Origin: Halorhabdus utahensis DSM 12940
GTDB lineage: Archaea; Halobacteriota; Halobacteria; Halobacteriales; Haloarculaceae
Direction: 5' to 3'
DNA length: 64,000 bases
Assembly (NCBI RefSeq): GCF_000023945.1
Contig: NC_013158.1
Coordinates: 1,488,001-1,552,000 of the forward strand
A program made the translations under genes and the position numbers. Positions 39,345 to 58,331 of this stretch are shown piece by piece (positions within the stretch are counted from its first letter, which is position 1; each line of letters starts with the position of its first letter). The notes under the pieces are model-generated. The model saw nothing but the letters and a program-made list of their open reading frames with translations, had not been told where the DNA came from and ran no database searches.

Positions 39345-39980
39345 TCACTCGGATGTCTCGACCGTCGCCCGCCCACTTGTCGCGCTCCCGACCCGATCCC
39401 GGAGCGCCGCCAACTCGGCGGTCGGGACCCGCACGACGAACGCAACGCGCTCCTCGTAACAGGCCTCGAACTCCACGCCTTCGCTCTCTAAAATCGATCT
39501 GACCGTCCCGGAATCGTCGTACTCGACCTCGATCGCAACGCGTTCGTGTGGGCGCACCTCACGAACGCCGGCGTCGTCGACCGCTTCCTTGACAGCCCGA
39601 GAGTAGGCACTCACCAGCCCGCCGACGCCCAGCTCCGTCCCGCCGAAGTACCGCGTTACGACGACCGCGACATTCTCAAGTTCCTGGCCGTCGAGGACGT
39701 TCAACGCGGGTTTGCCTGCCGATCCCGATGGTTCGTCATCGTCACTCGCCCACGCCCGGAGCGGATCGGCACGCACCCGGTAGGCCGGGACGTTGTGGGT
39801 CGCATCGTCGTACTCCGCACGGATCGAACCGACGAACGCCTCGGCCGCGTCAACGGTCCCGGCCGGGCGCGCGTGACCGATGAACTCCGAACCCGAGATG
39901 GTGAACCGCCCCTCAGCGACGCCGGCACTCGTGTGTTCCGAACGGCTTGAGCGACGGAAACCTTCGGGGAGATCGCTCAC
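39345..39980 (-). CDS. IMPACT/YigZ-family protein, copy 1
   Basis: The product is 211 residues starting at GTG. It shows the UPF0029/IMPACT core: FTISGSEFIGHARPA, RVRADPLRAWASDDDEPSGSAGKPAL and VVTRYFGGTELGVGGLVSAYSRAV. Family members affect translation control or ribosome-linked stress, but the archaeal role is undefined. Its GTG overlaps the stop of the upstream zinc-ribbon gene by four bases. A close paralogue lies at 42.0-42.7 kb. Confidence 0.88.
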   Translation of the reverse strand: MSDLPEGFRRSSRSEHTSAGVAEGRFTISGSEFIGHARPAGTVDAAEAFVGSIRAEYDDATHNVPAYRVRADPLRAWASDDDEPSGSAGKPALNVLDGQELENVAVVVTRYFGGTELGVGGLVSAYSRAVKEAVDDAGVREVRPHERVAIEVEYDDSGTVRSILESEGVEFEACYEERVAFVVRVPTAELAALRDRVGSATSGRATVETSE

Positions 39981-42045: not shown

Positions 42046-42657
42046 TTACGCTTCGGGTGTTTCAACCATCGCCCGCCCGCTCGTTGCGCTCGCAATCCGG
42101 TCTCGAAGAGTGTCGCTTTCGGCGGTCGGCACCCGCACGATGAACTGCACACGTGCTTCGTAGCTGGCTTCAAAGTCGACCCCTTCGCTCTCCAAAATCG
42201 ACCGGACTGTCCCTGAATCGTCGTACTCGACGGTGATCGCCAGGCGCTCGTGTGGCCGCTCTTCCCGGACGCCGGCGTCCTCGGTCGCCTCCTTGACGGC
42301 CCGGGAATAGGCGCTCACCAGGCCACCGACGCCGAGTTCAGTTCCACCGAAGTATCGCGTCACGACGACGACCACGTTCTCCAGTTCCTGGCCGGCGAGA
42401 ACGTTCAACGCCGGCTTGCCGGCCGAACCAGAGGGTTCGCCGTCGTCGCTGGCCCACGCCCGAAGTGGATCGGCCCGCACCCGATAGGCGGGGACGTTGT
42501 GAGTCGCGTCGTCGTATTCGGCCCGGACCTCCTCGACGAACGCCTCAGCCGCCTCGACAGTCTCGGCTGGTCTGGCATGGCCGAGGAACTGAGAGCCCGA
42601 TATCGTGAACTGTGACTCCCCGGGACCGGCAACCGTCCGGTAGCGTTCGTCCGTCAC
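42046..42657 (-). CDS. IMPACT/YigZ-family protein, copy 2
   Basis: The product is about 203 residues from GTG 42657 and is very similar to copy 1 throughout (SQFLGHARPA; ASDDGEPSGSAGKPA; RYFGGTELGVGGLVSAYS). Many codons differ only in the third base, so the duplication is not recent but both proteins are constrained. A TTG start 23 codons upstream is open; the GTG gives a length close to copy 1. The two copies flank a block of small membrane genes. The role is unknown, as for copy 1. Confidence 0.85.
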   Translation of the reverse strand: MTDERYRTVAGPGESQFTISGSQFLGHARPAETVEAAEAFVEEVRAEYDDATHNVPAYRVRADPLRAWASDDGEPSGSAGKPALNVLAGQELENVVVVVTRYFGGTELGVGGLVSAYSRAVKEATEDAGVREERPHERLAITVEYDDSGTVRSILESEGVDFEASYEARVQFIVRVPTAESDTLRDRIASATSGRAMVETPEA

Positions 42658-42840
42658 TGCCGGCGCTTCGCCGGCAATCGTGAAACCAGTTTCGCGACGA
42701 ACCGCAGCGGATACCGTTTCAGTCAAGCAGTTTCACTTTCACTCCGGGGGGATCGCCTATTTACCCATTCACGATCCAGATAGAAGTGGAGCGTCGCTGG
42801 TCACACGCCGCACACGCTCCATCGTTCCCCTTTCAATACA

Positions 42841-43011: not shown

Positions 43012-43100
43012 GCCGACACGATCCCGGCGGGCGTTCGAGCGACCCCAGTAGCGACCGCCGCGATCGCAACCCGTTTTGACGAGCGATCCCAAGCACAACT

Positions 43101-44171
43101 GTGTTCAGACGGGAGTTTCTCGCGACCGGATCGGCACTGGGAATCGCCGCGCTCGCCGGCTGTGGATCCCTGGAGTCGAGAGCAATCGACATCCCGCCGG
43201 TCCTGGACAACCGACCCGACGCGATCTACGTTCCGGGCCACGTCGAGGGGATGAACATGGTCGGCATCGAGACGACCGGGGAGTACGACGTCGCGCTTTC
43301 ATATAGCTATCCCCACCGCTTCTGGACGGTCACCGGCACCGATGTCGAGCGCACGTCGACCGAGGAGGCGGACTCGGTTCACCTGATGGCGACAGTCTGG
43401 GACGCAGAGACGGGGATGATCCTCCCGGAGGTCGGCGTCGCCATCGAAATCACGCAGGATGGATCGCTCGTCTCGGAGGAGACCGTCTACGCGATGCTCT
43501 CGGGGCCGATGGGTGTCCACCACGGCGCGAACTTTGCGGGCCTCGATGAAGGCGACTACGAGGTGGCCGTCCGCGTCGGCGCGACAGCGAGTCGCCCGAC
43601 GGGCGCGTTCGCGGGACGGTTCGAGGAGCCAGCGACGGCGACGTTCGAATTCACCTTCGACCAGGAAACGATGGGAGAGATTCGCTTCGATCGACTCGAC
43701 CGTGGAGGCGAGCGTGGGGCCATCGAGCCGATGCCGATGGGCGCGGTCCCCACCGGCGTCGCACCTGCCACGGACGATCTACCAGGGAAAGCCGTGAAAG
43801 CCATGGCCGGAGACATCCGCTACGTGGCGACGGTGGTCGACCCACCTGCCGGGATCGAGGACGAGGGGCCGTACCTCGCACTCTCACCCCGGACGCGGTA
43901 CAACGGCTACTATCTCTCGCGGATGGGGGTGTCCGTGAGCCTGGAGGGCAACGGCGAATCGTCGACCGAGGAGACACTGACCCGGGCGATCGACCCCGAG
44001 TTGGGATATCACTACGGGACGACGCTGCCACGCGAGGGCGAGCAAGGCGAGACCGCGAGCCGCGAGCGTGACGAGCTGTCGATCACGGTCGAGACGCCAC
44101 CACAGGTCGCCAGACACGAGGGCTACGAGACGGCGTTTTTCGACGTGCCGACGACGACGCTGTCGCTGTGA
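43101..44171 (+). CDS. P19-like iron-transport-associated lipoprotein
   Basis: The product is 356 residues starting at GTG, with Tat-like REFLATGSALG and lipobox LAGC at about residue 21, so it is anchored outside the membrane. Residues about 45-175 resemble the P19/FTR-associated periplasmic iron protein, with His/Met-rich spots (VPGHVEGMNMVG, YPHRFW, GPMGVHHG) able to bind copper or iron. The C-terminal half is a second beta-rich domain. It precedes a DyP-like gene by 75 bases. The iron role is inferred from family and context. Confidence 0.7.
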   Translation: MFRREFLATGSALGIAALAGCGSLESRAIDIPPVLDNRPDAIYVPGHVEGMNMVGIETTGEYDVALSYSYPHRFWTVTGTDVERTSTEEADSVHLMATVWDAETGMILPEVGVAIEITQDGSLVSEETVYAMLSGPMGVHHGANFAGLDEGDYEVAVRVGATASRPTGAFAGRFEEPATATFEFTFDQETMGEIRFDRLDRGGERGAIEPMPMGAVPTGVAPATDDLPGKAVKAMAGDIRYVATVVDPPAGIEDEGPYLALSPRTRYNGYYLSRMGVSVSLEGNGESSTEETLTRAIDPELGYHYGTTLPREGEQGETASRERDELSITVETPPQVARHEGYETAFFDVPTTTLSL

Positions 44172-44246
44172 GGGACCACACCTGGAAACAGCCACCGGCT
44201 CGCCGCGGCCGACGCGGTTTAGGCCCCGGATCACCAAGCGTCCCCG

Positions 44247-45527
44247 ATGGAAGCGCGACCGGAGTACGACCGCCGGCAGTTGCTGAAGGCTGCGGTCGCC
44301 ACCGGCGGCGTGGCCGCGTTGAGCGCGTGTCTCGACGTCACTGACGAGCCTGTGCCGACGGGCGTCGACGATCCCGAGACGCTACCAGAGCGCCAGCACG
44401 CCTGGAACGACCGCGTCCGGAGTGACGAGCACGGCAACGTGGCACTTCCGCGCCACCAGTCACTGCTGTACCTGACCCTCGATGGCGACGGGCCACCGAC
44501 CGACGCCGACCGCGAGGTCGTCCGGAACGCCCTCCGGACGCTCGATCGGGCCTACGAACGCTCGAACGAGGGGCTGGTCTATTCGATCGCCTACTCGCCA
44601 TCCTACTTCGAGCGCTTCGACGCGTCGCTTCCCGACGGGATCGACCTGCCGTCGCCGCGACGCCTCTCGCCCTTCGAGGAACCCGAATTCGACACCCAGG
44701 ACGCCCTGCTTCACCTCGCCAGCGACCGCGCCGACGTGATTCTGGCGGCCGAGGCGGCGCTTCGGGGCGATCGAGATGAAGTCAACGGCGTCACCCTCGA
44801 CGCGCCGCTCACGGACGCGATGCCCGTCGCGGACCGCCGGTCCGGGTTCGTCGGTCCCGGGATGCCGGCCGACCGGCAGGACGTCGCGGGGATCCCGGAC
44901 GGCGATCCCGTCCCCGAGGCCGCGCCGCTGTTCATGGGCTTTGAGGCCGGCTTCCGGGGCAACCAGGCCACGGAGGACTACGTCACGATCGAGTCGGGGC
45001 GCTTCGCCGGCGGGACGACCAAACACGTCTCCCGACTCCGCCAGCGCCTCGAGGACTGGTACGGCGAGCAGGACTTCGAGCAGCGAGTCGCGGAGCTGTT
45101 CAGTCCCGCTCATGCCGAAGCGGGACTCGTCGAGGGCGTCGGCGAGAATCTCGGCAGCGATAGCGGACTGACACCGGAAATGATCGAGAAGGTCCGTGAG
45201 CACGCCAGCGAGTTCGGGCGGGTCGGCCATGCCCAGAAGGCCGCCCGGGCGAACCGCGACGAGGACGGCAACGTCCGACTCCTGCGACGCCACGTCGAGT
45301 CGACGGACGGCGACGTCGCCGCGCTGCACTTCCCGTCGCTCCAGCGGGGCATCTCGGCCTTCGAGGACGTCCGGAAGGCGATGAACGGGACCGATCTGAC
45401 CGACGAGCCGGCGATCCGCCAGCGGGTCAACAACGGCATCCTGGAGTACATCTTCACGACGCACCGCGGGAACTTTCTGGTGCCGCCGCGCCGCCTTCGG
45501 GTGCTCCCTCGGCCACGGCCCGCGTAG
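44247..45527 (+). CDS. Tat lipoprotein of the DyP-type peroxidase superfamily
   Basis: The product is 426 residues. The Tat signal YDRRQLLKAAVATGG ends at a lipobox-like SAC. The body shows the DyP hallmark GXXDG as AGIPDGDP (about 215), TTKHVSRLRQRLEDW in the following strand/helix, and GHAQKAARANRDEDG (about 330) where the proximal haem His lies in DyP proteins, then LHFPSLQRGISAF. It may be an EfeB-like haem enzyme releasing or oxidising iron at the surface. The upstream P19-like gene supports an iron function. Confidence 0.72.
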   Translation: MEARPEYDRRQLLKAAVATGGVAALSACLDVTDEPVPTGVDDPETLPERQHAWNDRVRSDEHGNVALPRHQSLLYLTLDGDGPPTDADREVVRNALRTLDRAYERSNEGLVYSIAYSPSYFERFDASLPDGIDLPSPRRLSPFEEPEFDTQDALLHLASDRADVILAAEAALRGDRDEVNGVTLDAPLTDAMPVADRRSGFVGPGMPADRQDVAGIPDGDPVPEAAPLFMGFEAGFRGNQATEDYVTIESGRFAGGTTKHVSRLRQRLEDWYGEQDFEQRVAELFSPAHAEAGLVEGVGENLGSDSGLTPEMIEKVREHASEFGRVGHAQKAARANRDEDGNVRLLRRHVESTDGDVAALHFPSLQRGISAFEDVRKAMNGTDLTDEPAIRQRVNNGILEYIFTTHRGNFLVPPRRLRVLPRPRPA

Positions 45528-45624: not shown

Positions 45625-46689
45625 ATGCAACGACGCGCTGCGGCGATCTATGCCGCGTTTTTCATTCTCGTCGGCGTCTCAGCGTACGCTTTCATCGGCA
45701 TCGCCGAGCAGCCGACAGTGTCACTGGCTGGCGACGAGTACGCGGCCGGGGCAAACCTCGACGTCGGCGATCGGACGTATACGGTCGAAACCGTCGACGC
45801 TGACGCCGACTCCGGGGAACTCTCCTGGACGAACGAATCAGCGACGTTCACGGTGACGTTCGAGAACGACACGACAGTCTCACCGCTCGAAGTGCAGTGG
45901 GATGGCCAGCGAGCGCGATGGACCGAGACGCTCGCCAACGGCTCGACGTTCGCCTACGAGAACGGGACCTATCGGGTCGGCGTCAATGCCTCGGCCGACC
46001 CGCCAACCGCGACACTCCAGCACGTCGAGAACGCCTCGGTGAACGAGAGCGTCGAGCTCGGTGATACGCTCGCGTATCAAAACAACGAGACGACGATCAC
46101 GGCCATCGACGCCGACGGGATGACACTCGCCTGGAGCGAACCCTACCTCGTCGCCGTCCCGAACGTCACCGATCCCTCGTCAGTCACGTTCCGCCAGCAA
46201 TTCGACGTCGAAACCCGGCTCGCACGCGACGACTTGGTGTACAACGAGACGGTGACGGTCGGAAGCGGCGAGTCCGTGGTCCACCGGGCCGACAACGCGA
46301 CGACGGCACTCGATACGTACCTGCCCGCGCCCGATACCGCGACGTTCGAGGAGGGCGAGACGATCCACTATGCGGGCAACGAGACGATCGTCGAGAACGT
46401 CACAGCCGGCGGCGTCACGCTCGCGTGGGACGGGGTGCGAACGGAGACCGTCCGCTTCGCCGAGGGAGCGAACATTACCCTCGCCGGCCAGCCCTACTTC
46501 ACGCACTTCAGTGGCTCCTCCCAGGTCCAGATCCTGCCGCGTGAGGACGCCTACGAAACGTACCAGCAACAACTCGACGAGCAGGAGTACTTCACCGAGC
46601 GGAAGAACGGTCTCTGGGGCGTCACGCTGTTCAGCGGCCTCGTCGCCGCGATGTTGCTGGGGATGGCGTACCTGCCCAGAAAAGGGTAG
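45625..46689 (+). CDS. Extracellular protein with terminal membrane anchors
   Basis: The product is 354 residues. An N-terminal hydrophobic helix (about 8-27) and a C-terminal one (about 330-350) bracket a 300-residue beta-rich outer part with many NxS/T sequons (NES, NDT, NGS, NGT, NAS). It contains three or four repeats of a strand pattern around ETVDADADSGELSW and AIDADGMTLAW. It follows the iron-related genes but shows no metal motif. The function is unknown. Confidence 0.65.
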   Translation: MQRRAAAIYAAFFILVGVSAYAFIGIAEQPTVSLAGDEYAAGANLDVGDRTYTVETVDADADSGELSWTNESATFTVTFENDTTVSPLEVQWDGQRARWTETLANGSTFAYENGTYRVGVNASADPPTATLQHVENASVNESVELGDTLAYQNNETTITAIDADGMTLAWSEPYLVAVPNVTDPSSVTFRQQFDVETRLARDDLVYNETVTVGSGESVVHRADNATTALDTYLPAPDTATFEEGETIHYAGNETIVENVTAGGVTLAWDGVRTETVRFAEGANITLAGQPYFTHFSGSSQVQILPREDAYETYQQQLDEQEYFTERKNGLWGVTLFSGLVAAMLLGMAYLPRKG

Positions 46690-58315: not shown

Positions 58316-58331
58316 TTTAGGCTAGCCTAAA
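58316..58331. promoter_or_regulatory. DtxR/IdeR-type iron box (perfect 16-bp palindrome)
   Basis: TTTAGGCTAGCCTAAA is a perfect inverted repeat whose core TTAGGCTAGCCTAA matches DtxR/IdeR-family operators; haloarchaea use Idr/SirR members of this family. It lies between the TATA box and the ATG at 58334, so bound repressor would block initiation. It is the only such site I found in the window. Iron repression of the operon is therefore expected. Confidence 0.82.

Follow-up and report, generated by a model that had tools for sequence, protein, structure and literature searches.

The gene pair and its distribution

The window, which is the whole stretch of 64,000 nucleotides analysed here, belongs to the genome of Halorhabdus utahensis DSM 12940, a single contig of 3.12 Mb. 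An earlier note on this DNA had placed two adjacent reading frames at 43101–45527. Both genes, called A and B here, lie there on the plus strand. The features of the pair are as follows.

43071..43078, plus strand: TATA-like box 5' of gene A, read by eye
43101..44171, plus strand: gene A, two-domain P19-like Tat lipoprotein (GTG start, 356 aa)
43101..43163, plus strand: Tat signal (R3, R4) and lipobox ending at C21 of A
44216..44223, plus strand: TATA-like box 5' of gene B, read by eye
44247..45527, plus strand: gene B, Tat lipoprotein with a predicted DyP fold (426 aa)
44247..44330, plus strand: Tat signal (R9, R10) and lipobox ending at C28 of B

The twin Arg residues and the lipobox Cys are invariant among the aligned sequences of A (R3, R4 and C21; 40/40) and of B (R9, R10 and C28; 46/46). 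This agrees with the Tat signals and lipoboxes that the earlier note had read in both proteins. The TAT-signal match of B in a Pfam scan is below the cut-off. The upstream boxes seen by eye are GTTTTG-like for A and GGTTT[TA] for B, and each is present in the window and in 6 of 6 genomes of the same genus. The TATA-like box 5' of B suggests that B has its own promoter. Since such a box precedes each gene, B may be transcribed on its own.

Matches to A were found in 47 and matches to B in 51 of the 59 genomes, the window's own being counted. Both families are common in the haloarchaea searched. The closest named matches to B are from Halorhabdus species, with 85 and 80% identity. The lists used for linkage contain 87 rows for A and 73 rows for B, with fragments and weak rows left out. 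At 38 of the 73 B places, spread over 33 genomes, A is found within 1 kb of B, in either gene order and mostly on the same strand. The other 35 places have no A within 1 kb. B is present in all 47 genomes with A, a count confounded by incomplete genomes. In the genus of the window, the A-B order is kept in 7 of 7 genomes. A B-A-A neighbourhood of the same layout is seen at the loci L153–L157, which belong to two Haloarcula, two Halorussus and one Halosegnis species; one of these records is marked plasmid. This suggests that the B-A-A neighbourhood moved on plasmids.

Protein A and the P19 family

According to Pfam, A contains DUF7350 at residues 225–354 (E 2.5e-47). Its match to Iron_transport/P19 (PF10634) is 20.4 bits, below the cut-off of 21. 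FtrA is matched by the A profile with E 1.4e-5. Neither a cupredoxin nor an M75 family came up when A was scanned with Pfam to E 1, and an NCBIfam search gave nothing useful. A single-sequence search of A against the PDB had no relevant match (best E 0.46, PLD3). The DyP matches obtained from the PDB were no better than E 0.035 with the single sequence of B and E 0.21 with the A1 profile. The PDB matches being this weak for both proteins, comparison of sequence with the PDB was not enough.

The features of A are listed below.

43239..43679, plus strand: N-terminal P19/FetP/FtrA-fold domain, about residues 47–193 (Foldseek, VIA, FtrA profile)
43380..43388, plus strand: H94-L-M96, aligned at HLE of FtrA, with Met for the acid (H94 and M96, 40/40)
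43494..43520, plus strand: M132...M137-G-x-H140, aligned at PMVAN-DGPH of FtrA (M132, M137 and H140, 40/40)
43689..44168, plus strand: C-terminal part, about residues 197–356 (hhalign of the N half against the C half)
43731..43739, plus strand: Met-rich linker with M211 (Met in 38/40) and M213 (Met in 36/40)

A was modelled by AlphaFold2 with 40 sequences (pLDDT 86.8). In a Foldseek search with this model, the N-terminal domain matches FetP, P19, Tp34, HftA and FtrA (best E 3.1e-5). P19-family chains occupy the first five rows of Foldseek and the first 21 rows of VIA. In VIA, the predicted model is aligned with the P19 fold over 136 residues with Z 13.9 and rmsd 2.4. Together with the FtrA match, these facts support the P19 likeness that had been claimed for A. 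The structure searches covered mainly the N-terminal domain. The N half and the C half of A match each other in hhalign over 80 columns (probability 95, E 3.6e-8 as a single comparison), and the C-terminal part probably derives from the N-terminal domain by duplication and divergence. A thus joins a P19-fold domain to its probable duplicate, and it is not EfeO-like.

In the alignment of A with FtrA, M132 corresponds to the Met of PMV, M137 to the Asp before GPH, and H140 to the His of GPH. At the positions that we take to bind copper in P19, FetP and FtrA, the ligand types His, Met and His are kept in A (H94, M132 and H140; 40/40). No His of A is aligned with H151 of FtrA; R173 or F174 is nearby. 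The FtrA acids at HLE, HLEAD and D-GPH are presumably the counterparts of P19 E44, D46 and D92, respectively. Two of these FtrA acid positions are Met (M96 and M137) in 40/40 A homologues, and residue 98, at the Asp of HLEAD, is Ser, Thr or Val in 35/40. The likely iron site of P19 consists of Glu3, Glu44, Asp46 and Asp92, according to an excerpt of PMC9174327. This acidic site was not found in A through the FtrA alignment, which covers the presumed positions of P19 Glu44, Asp46 and Asp92. Residue 49 of A is acidic in 40/40 sequences (37 Glu and 3 Asp) and could keep part of an iron site. The mean Met content is 3.8% in A vs 1.2% in B, the first 30 residues being left out. We infer that the iron site of A was lost in favour of a soft-metal site, probably for Cu(I), a reading that follows from the type of the residues only.

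There is also a separate haloarchaeal P19-like protein, L178 (an open frame of 194 aa on the minus strand), in which the acid of HLE is kept. It is the top P19 match by Pfam in a sample of 294 genomes (44.8 bits).

Protein B and the DyP fold

B is covered by DUF7405 (Pfam, E 2.7e-168). The Pfam DyP models (PF04261/PF20628) have no match in the window's B up to E 1. In the phylum sample, DyP_C is over the cut-off in 6 of 294 genomes, and all six matches are in DUF7405 proteins. The model of B, made by AlphaFold2 with 46 sequences, has pLDDT 88.1 and pTM 0.87. In Foldseek, the best 50 of its 464 matches (E up to 10) are all DyPs, with a best E of 1.6e-15. VIA places the predicted model on the DyP fold with Z 27.0 and rmsd 3.0 over 291 residues, and on Escherichia coli EfeB (3o72) with Z 26.3 and rmsd 3.1 over 304 residues. 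By sequence, DUF7405 was compared by hhalign with ten DyPs (EfeB, YfeX and eight from plasmid records), and the probability is 98 with E 2.3e-13 as a single comparison. B is thus predicted to have the fold of DyP haem peroxidases, as the earlier note had supposed.

The candidate haem site of protein B

The following parts of B are relevant to the putative haem site.

44889..44903, plus strand: GIPDG, residues 215–219, the GXXDG of the earlier note, a probable decoy in a loop of low pLDDT
44937..44951, plus strand: GFEAG, residues 231–235, the probable GXXDG equivalent without Asp (Pfam DyP_C, hhalign, 2 of 3 MAFFT modes)
45228..45230, plus strand: H328, candidate proximal haem ligand, at H329 of EfeB (3/3 MAFFT modes; 142/142)
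45285..45293, plus strand: R347-R348-H349, candidate distal Arg, at R347 of EfeB, and candidate acid/base 349 (alignments)

H329, R347 and D235, which we take to be the proximal and distal residues of EfeB, are invariant among the ten DyPs. H328 of B is aligned with H329 of EfeB in all three MAFFT modes, and HMMER alignments pair it with the DyP His; hhalign sets it a few residues before H329. Apart from this small shift, the alignments agree with the DyP-like proximal His region described earlier. R347 of B is paired with R347 of EfeB in 3/3 MAFFT modes and by hhalign. R347 and R348 are present in 142/142 sequences.

The placement of GXXDG is a different matter. The earlier note took GIPDG for this motif, in which case B would be an ordinary DyP there. 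MAFFT localpair, alone among the modes, places GXXDG at GIPDG. Four hmmsearch alignments were printed: the one with the best score, D41, has GIPDS at the motif and D40 has DVDG nearby, whereas D44 has GFKSG; the motif lies outside D34. The Asp of GIPDG is found only in 96/142 sequences and its last Gly only in 40/142. GFEAG begins 16 residues after GIPDG. Placement at GFxxG is backed by hhalign, by two of the three MAFFT modes and by the DyP_C coordinates in 3/3 members scanned. Three of the six DUF7405 proteins with a DyP_C match were scanned, and in each the match starts at position 5 or 6 of the profile, on the F or M preceding G-F-K-S-G; in EfeB and YfeX, position 7 is the first G of GXXDG, if there is no gap before. 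An ordinary GXXDG at residues 215–219 is therefore quite improbable, and the claim was not sustained: GIPDG is probably a decoy, and the DyP motif is mostly placed at GFEAG. Residue 234, at the position of the Asp, is Ala in 79, Ser in 56, Thr in 4, and Val, Gly and Asn in one each of 142 sequences, and never Asp. B probably lacks the distal Asp typical of DyPs, and hence of EfeB.

Residue 349 and its relation to residue 234

Two residues beyond the distal Arg comes residue 349, where the 142 sequences have His (77), Asp (60) or Ser (5). His or Asp here may stand in for the Asp of GXXDG. In four of the ten DyPs, the sequence at this site is R-x-N. This Asn is N246 of DypB, as identified from its number, and N246 variants of DypB are named in PDB titles.

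The combinations of residues 234 and 349 are mostly Ala-His (75/142) and Ser-Asp (53/142). This striking co-variation was considered as a repeated event and rejected as such. In a tree of 124 rows with SH-aLRT support, residue 349 changes twice, and residue 234 (Ala or not) changes five times. One clade of 61 rows has His349, nearly always with Ala234. Among five independent pairs of rows that differ at residue 234, residue 349 follows in one and is the same in four. This pattern indicates a single event in the history of the family. Among 397 columns, so sharp a split between the H and D groups is seen in only 6, which include residues 234 and 349. The pairing suggests, without proving it, that the two residues share a pocket.

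Iron-related features

The perfect palindrome TTAGGCTAGCCTAA is found in the window only at 58317–58330, one pattern being searched. It presumably resembles a DtxR-type iron box. A reading frame with VVVGGGVAG, read by eye as FAD-type, starts about 200 bases downstream of this palindrome. The iron-box pattern has 11 matches where 15.6 are expected by chance. The match nearest to the A-B pair is at 43373–43386, inside gene A, and has 3 mismatches. With respect to this one pattern, the pair lacks an iron box of the type at 58.3 kb, as the earlier note had said.

An EfeU permease was also said to be absent. FTR1 is not matched at all in the window's genome, and in 0/59 genomes is it over the cut-off, with one match below it; the same search was positive in 4/14 control genomes. 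The absence of EfeU is thus upheld. The main text of a 2024 paper on the iron-starvation proteome of H. volcanii does not contain "lipoprotein", "peroxidase" or "DUF7", which is weak evidence.

The resemblance to EfeO/EfeB that was proposed for the pair can be kept only in part. A P19-like and a DyP-like protein, both with export signals, are present and the permease is missing, as proposed; however, A is not EfeO-like and B is probably without the distal Asp. The case for an iron role is weak, given Met at two FtrA acid positions in 40/40, no FTR1 over the cut-off in 59 genomes and no nearby iron box with fewer than 3 mismatches.

Relation to known systems and proposed function

B resembles EfeB and other DyPs (PF04261/PF20628) in the fold over most of the protein, the proximal His and the distal Arg, and it resembles EfeB in twin-arginine export, which is reported for EfeB. 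It differs from them in that the Asp of GXXDG is probably Ala, Ser or Thr, and in that His or Asp is present two residues after the distal Arg in 137/142 sequences. Unlike EfeB, it has a lipobox, no EfeO-like neighbour and no EfeU over the cut-off. A shares with P19, FetP, FtrA and Tp34 (PF10634) the N-terminal fold and the His, Met and His at the HL-, PM- and GPH- positions. It differs in Met at the two FtrA acid positions, in the lack of His at FtrA H151, in the fused second, diverged domain and in the lack of an FTR1 partner over the cut-off. As in EfeUOB, an extracytoplasmic metal protein is beside a DyP. In contrast to EfeUOB, FetMP and FtrABCD, no FTR1 permease accompanies the pair over the cut-off in 59 genomes, and A is not EfeO.

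A and B keep the folds of known bacterial iron-uptake proteins, and they seem to have lost the putative iron ligands and the putative peroxidase acid. Because of these losses, the pair is probably a distinct archaeal version, not a plain iron importer. With a probability of roughly 0.55, A is a surface metal protein, probably for Cu(I), and B a divergent haem peroxidase, and the two manage metal redox and peroxide without FTR1 import. In this reading, A and B are partners at the cell surface, Tat-exported and lipid-anchored. B would bind haem in the cytoplasm and would then be exported folded. H2O2 would be split by B via Arg347 and, in place of the Asp of GXXDG, residue 349, which is His here and Asp in other family groups. 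A would use the His-Met-His positions and the extra Met residues to hold a soft metal, which is most likely Cu(I). The pair might then handle the redox of surface copper (or iron) together with the removal of peroxide, and import by an FTR1-type permease would have no part in the scheme. A more specific proposal is tentative: DUF7405 might be a natural DyP-fold haem peroxidase whose catalytic acid moved from the GXXDG loop to residue 349, where many lineages have Asp and the window's clade has His. Its partner at the cell surface would be a tandem-domain relative of P19 whose iron site turned into a Met-rich copper site.

A pair for iron uptake, in which A captures Fe2+ like P19, B is an EfeB-like ferrous oxidase/deferrochelatase and the permease is not FTR1, is rather doubtful. 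The closest solved folds, the P19 family and DyPs including EfeB, speak for it, and so does the RefSeq plasmid label "iron transporter" on 15 of the 25 A homologues listed out of 49 records. Iron is disfavoured by Met in 40/40 at the two FtrA acid positions, presumably those of P19 E44 and D92, by the lack of FTR1 over the cut-off in 59 genomes and by iron boxes nearby never better than 3 mismatches; the silence of the H. volcanii paper's main text adds weakly to this. That A and B are neighbours merely by chance in the window's genome is very improbable. The TATA-like box before each gene and the 35 of 73 B places without A would fit chance, whereas in 33 genomes the two genes lie within 1 kb of each other, in one order or the other, and in the lists as entered no genome with A lacks B.

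It is also possible, at odds that we consider low, that B, for want of the distal Asp, is no peroxidase and binds haem to store, sense or carry it. Residue 234 is never Asp in 142 sequences, and an excerpt of PMC8230527 reports both Asp and Arg as essential in VcDyP. In the same excerpt, Arg is the reported essential residue in RjDypB, and R347 and R348 of B are invariant (142/142), which argues against this possibility. Accounts of what the distal Asp and Arg do in DyPs still disagree (PMC8230527, excerpt), and a DyP-fold family without the distal Asp would directly test which distal residue the splitting of H2O2 needs. Archaeal dyp genes are induced by oxidative stress, according to the same excerpt. 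For the preferred reading of A, a P19 relative with Met for the acids would show an iron fold turned to copper.

DUF7350 and DUF7405 are common in the haloarchaea searched, yet their Pfam descriptions give no function; the relations to P19 and DyP were worked out here. Annotation pipelines already recognise part of these family-level relations: the RefSeq plasmid label "Dyp-type peroxidase" or similar is found on 11 of the 25 B homologues listed out of 37 records. In the open-licence literature searched, no papers on DUF7405 or DUF7350 were found, DyP or EfeB in haloarchaea returned only papers unrelated by title and abstract, and the missing Asp with the Met-converted P19 site was not found in print.

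Genes around the pair

The neighbourhood was sampled at 37 loci, one per genus or lineage. Of the 175 genes that lie there no more than 3.6 kb from B, a selection of 128, picked by hand with long genes left out, was scanned. The families seen near B are HTH_HVO_0163_N (10), Thioredoxin_4 (9), MFS (8), DUF7282 (7) and DUF7471 (5). For comparison, 128 genes of up to 460 aa were drawn from 199 genes located more than 6.5 kb from B. Among these distant genes, MFS is seen four times, and each of the other four families at most once. In the window, four other nearby ORFs contain none of the five families by Pfam.

A third gene, which comes after B in the window (45625–46689, plus strand, 354 aa from ATG), has no Pfam match over the cut-off, and its homologues accompany B at loci of Halorhabdus, Halorientalis and Halosimplex. 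SCO1 and DsbA-like genes are near some copies, and one locus has a COX3 gene. A link to oxidase assembly was considered; much of its evidence comes from related genera. DUF7282 proteins are near A or B elsewhere (L083, L087, L091, L092, L094, L095, L106, L115, L124, L127 and L140). Among those listed, 12 of 14 have A-H-x-[ND]-H at the end of the signal-peptide region. Cleavage there would leave an N-terminal His, a possible copper-binding end.

Upstream of the pair, the ORFs 39345–39980 and 42046–42726 (minus strand) are alike by eye, and the second matches UPF0029 and DUF1949. The two are apparently a local duplication.
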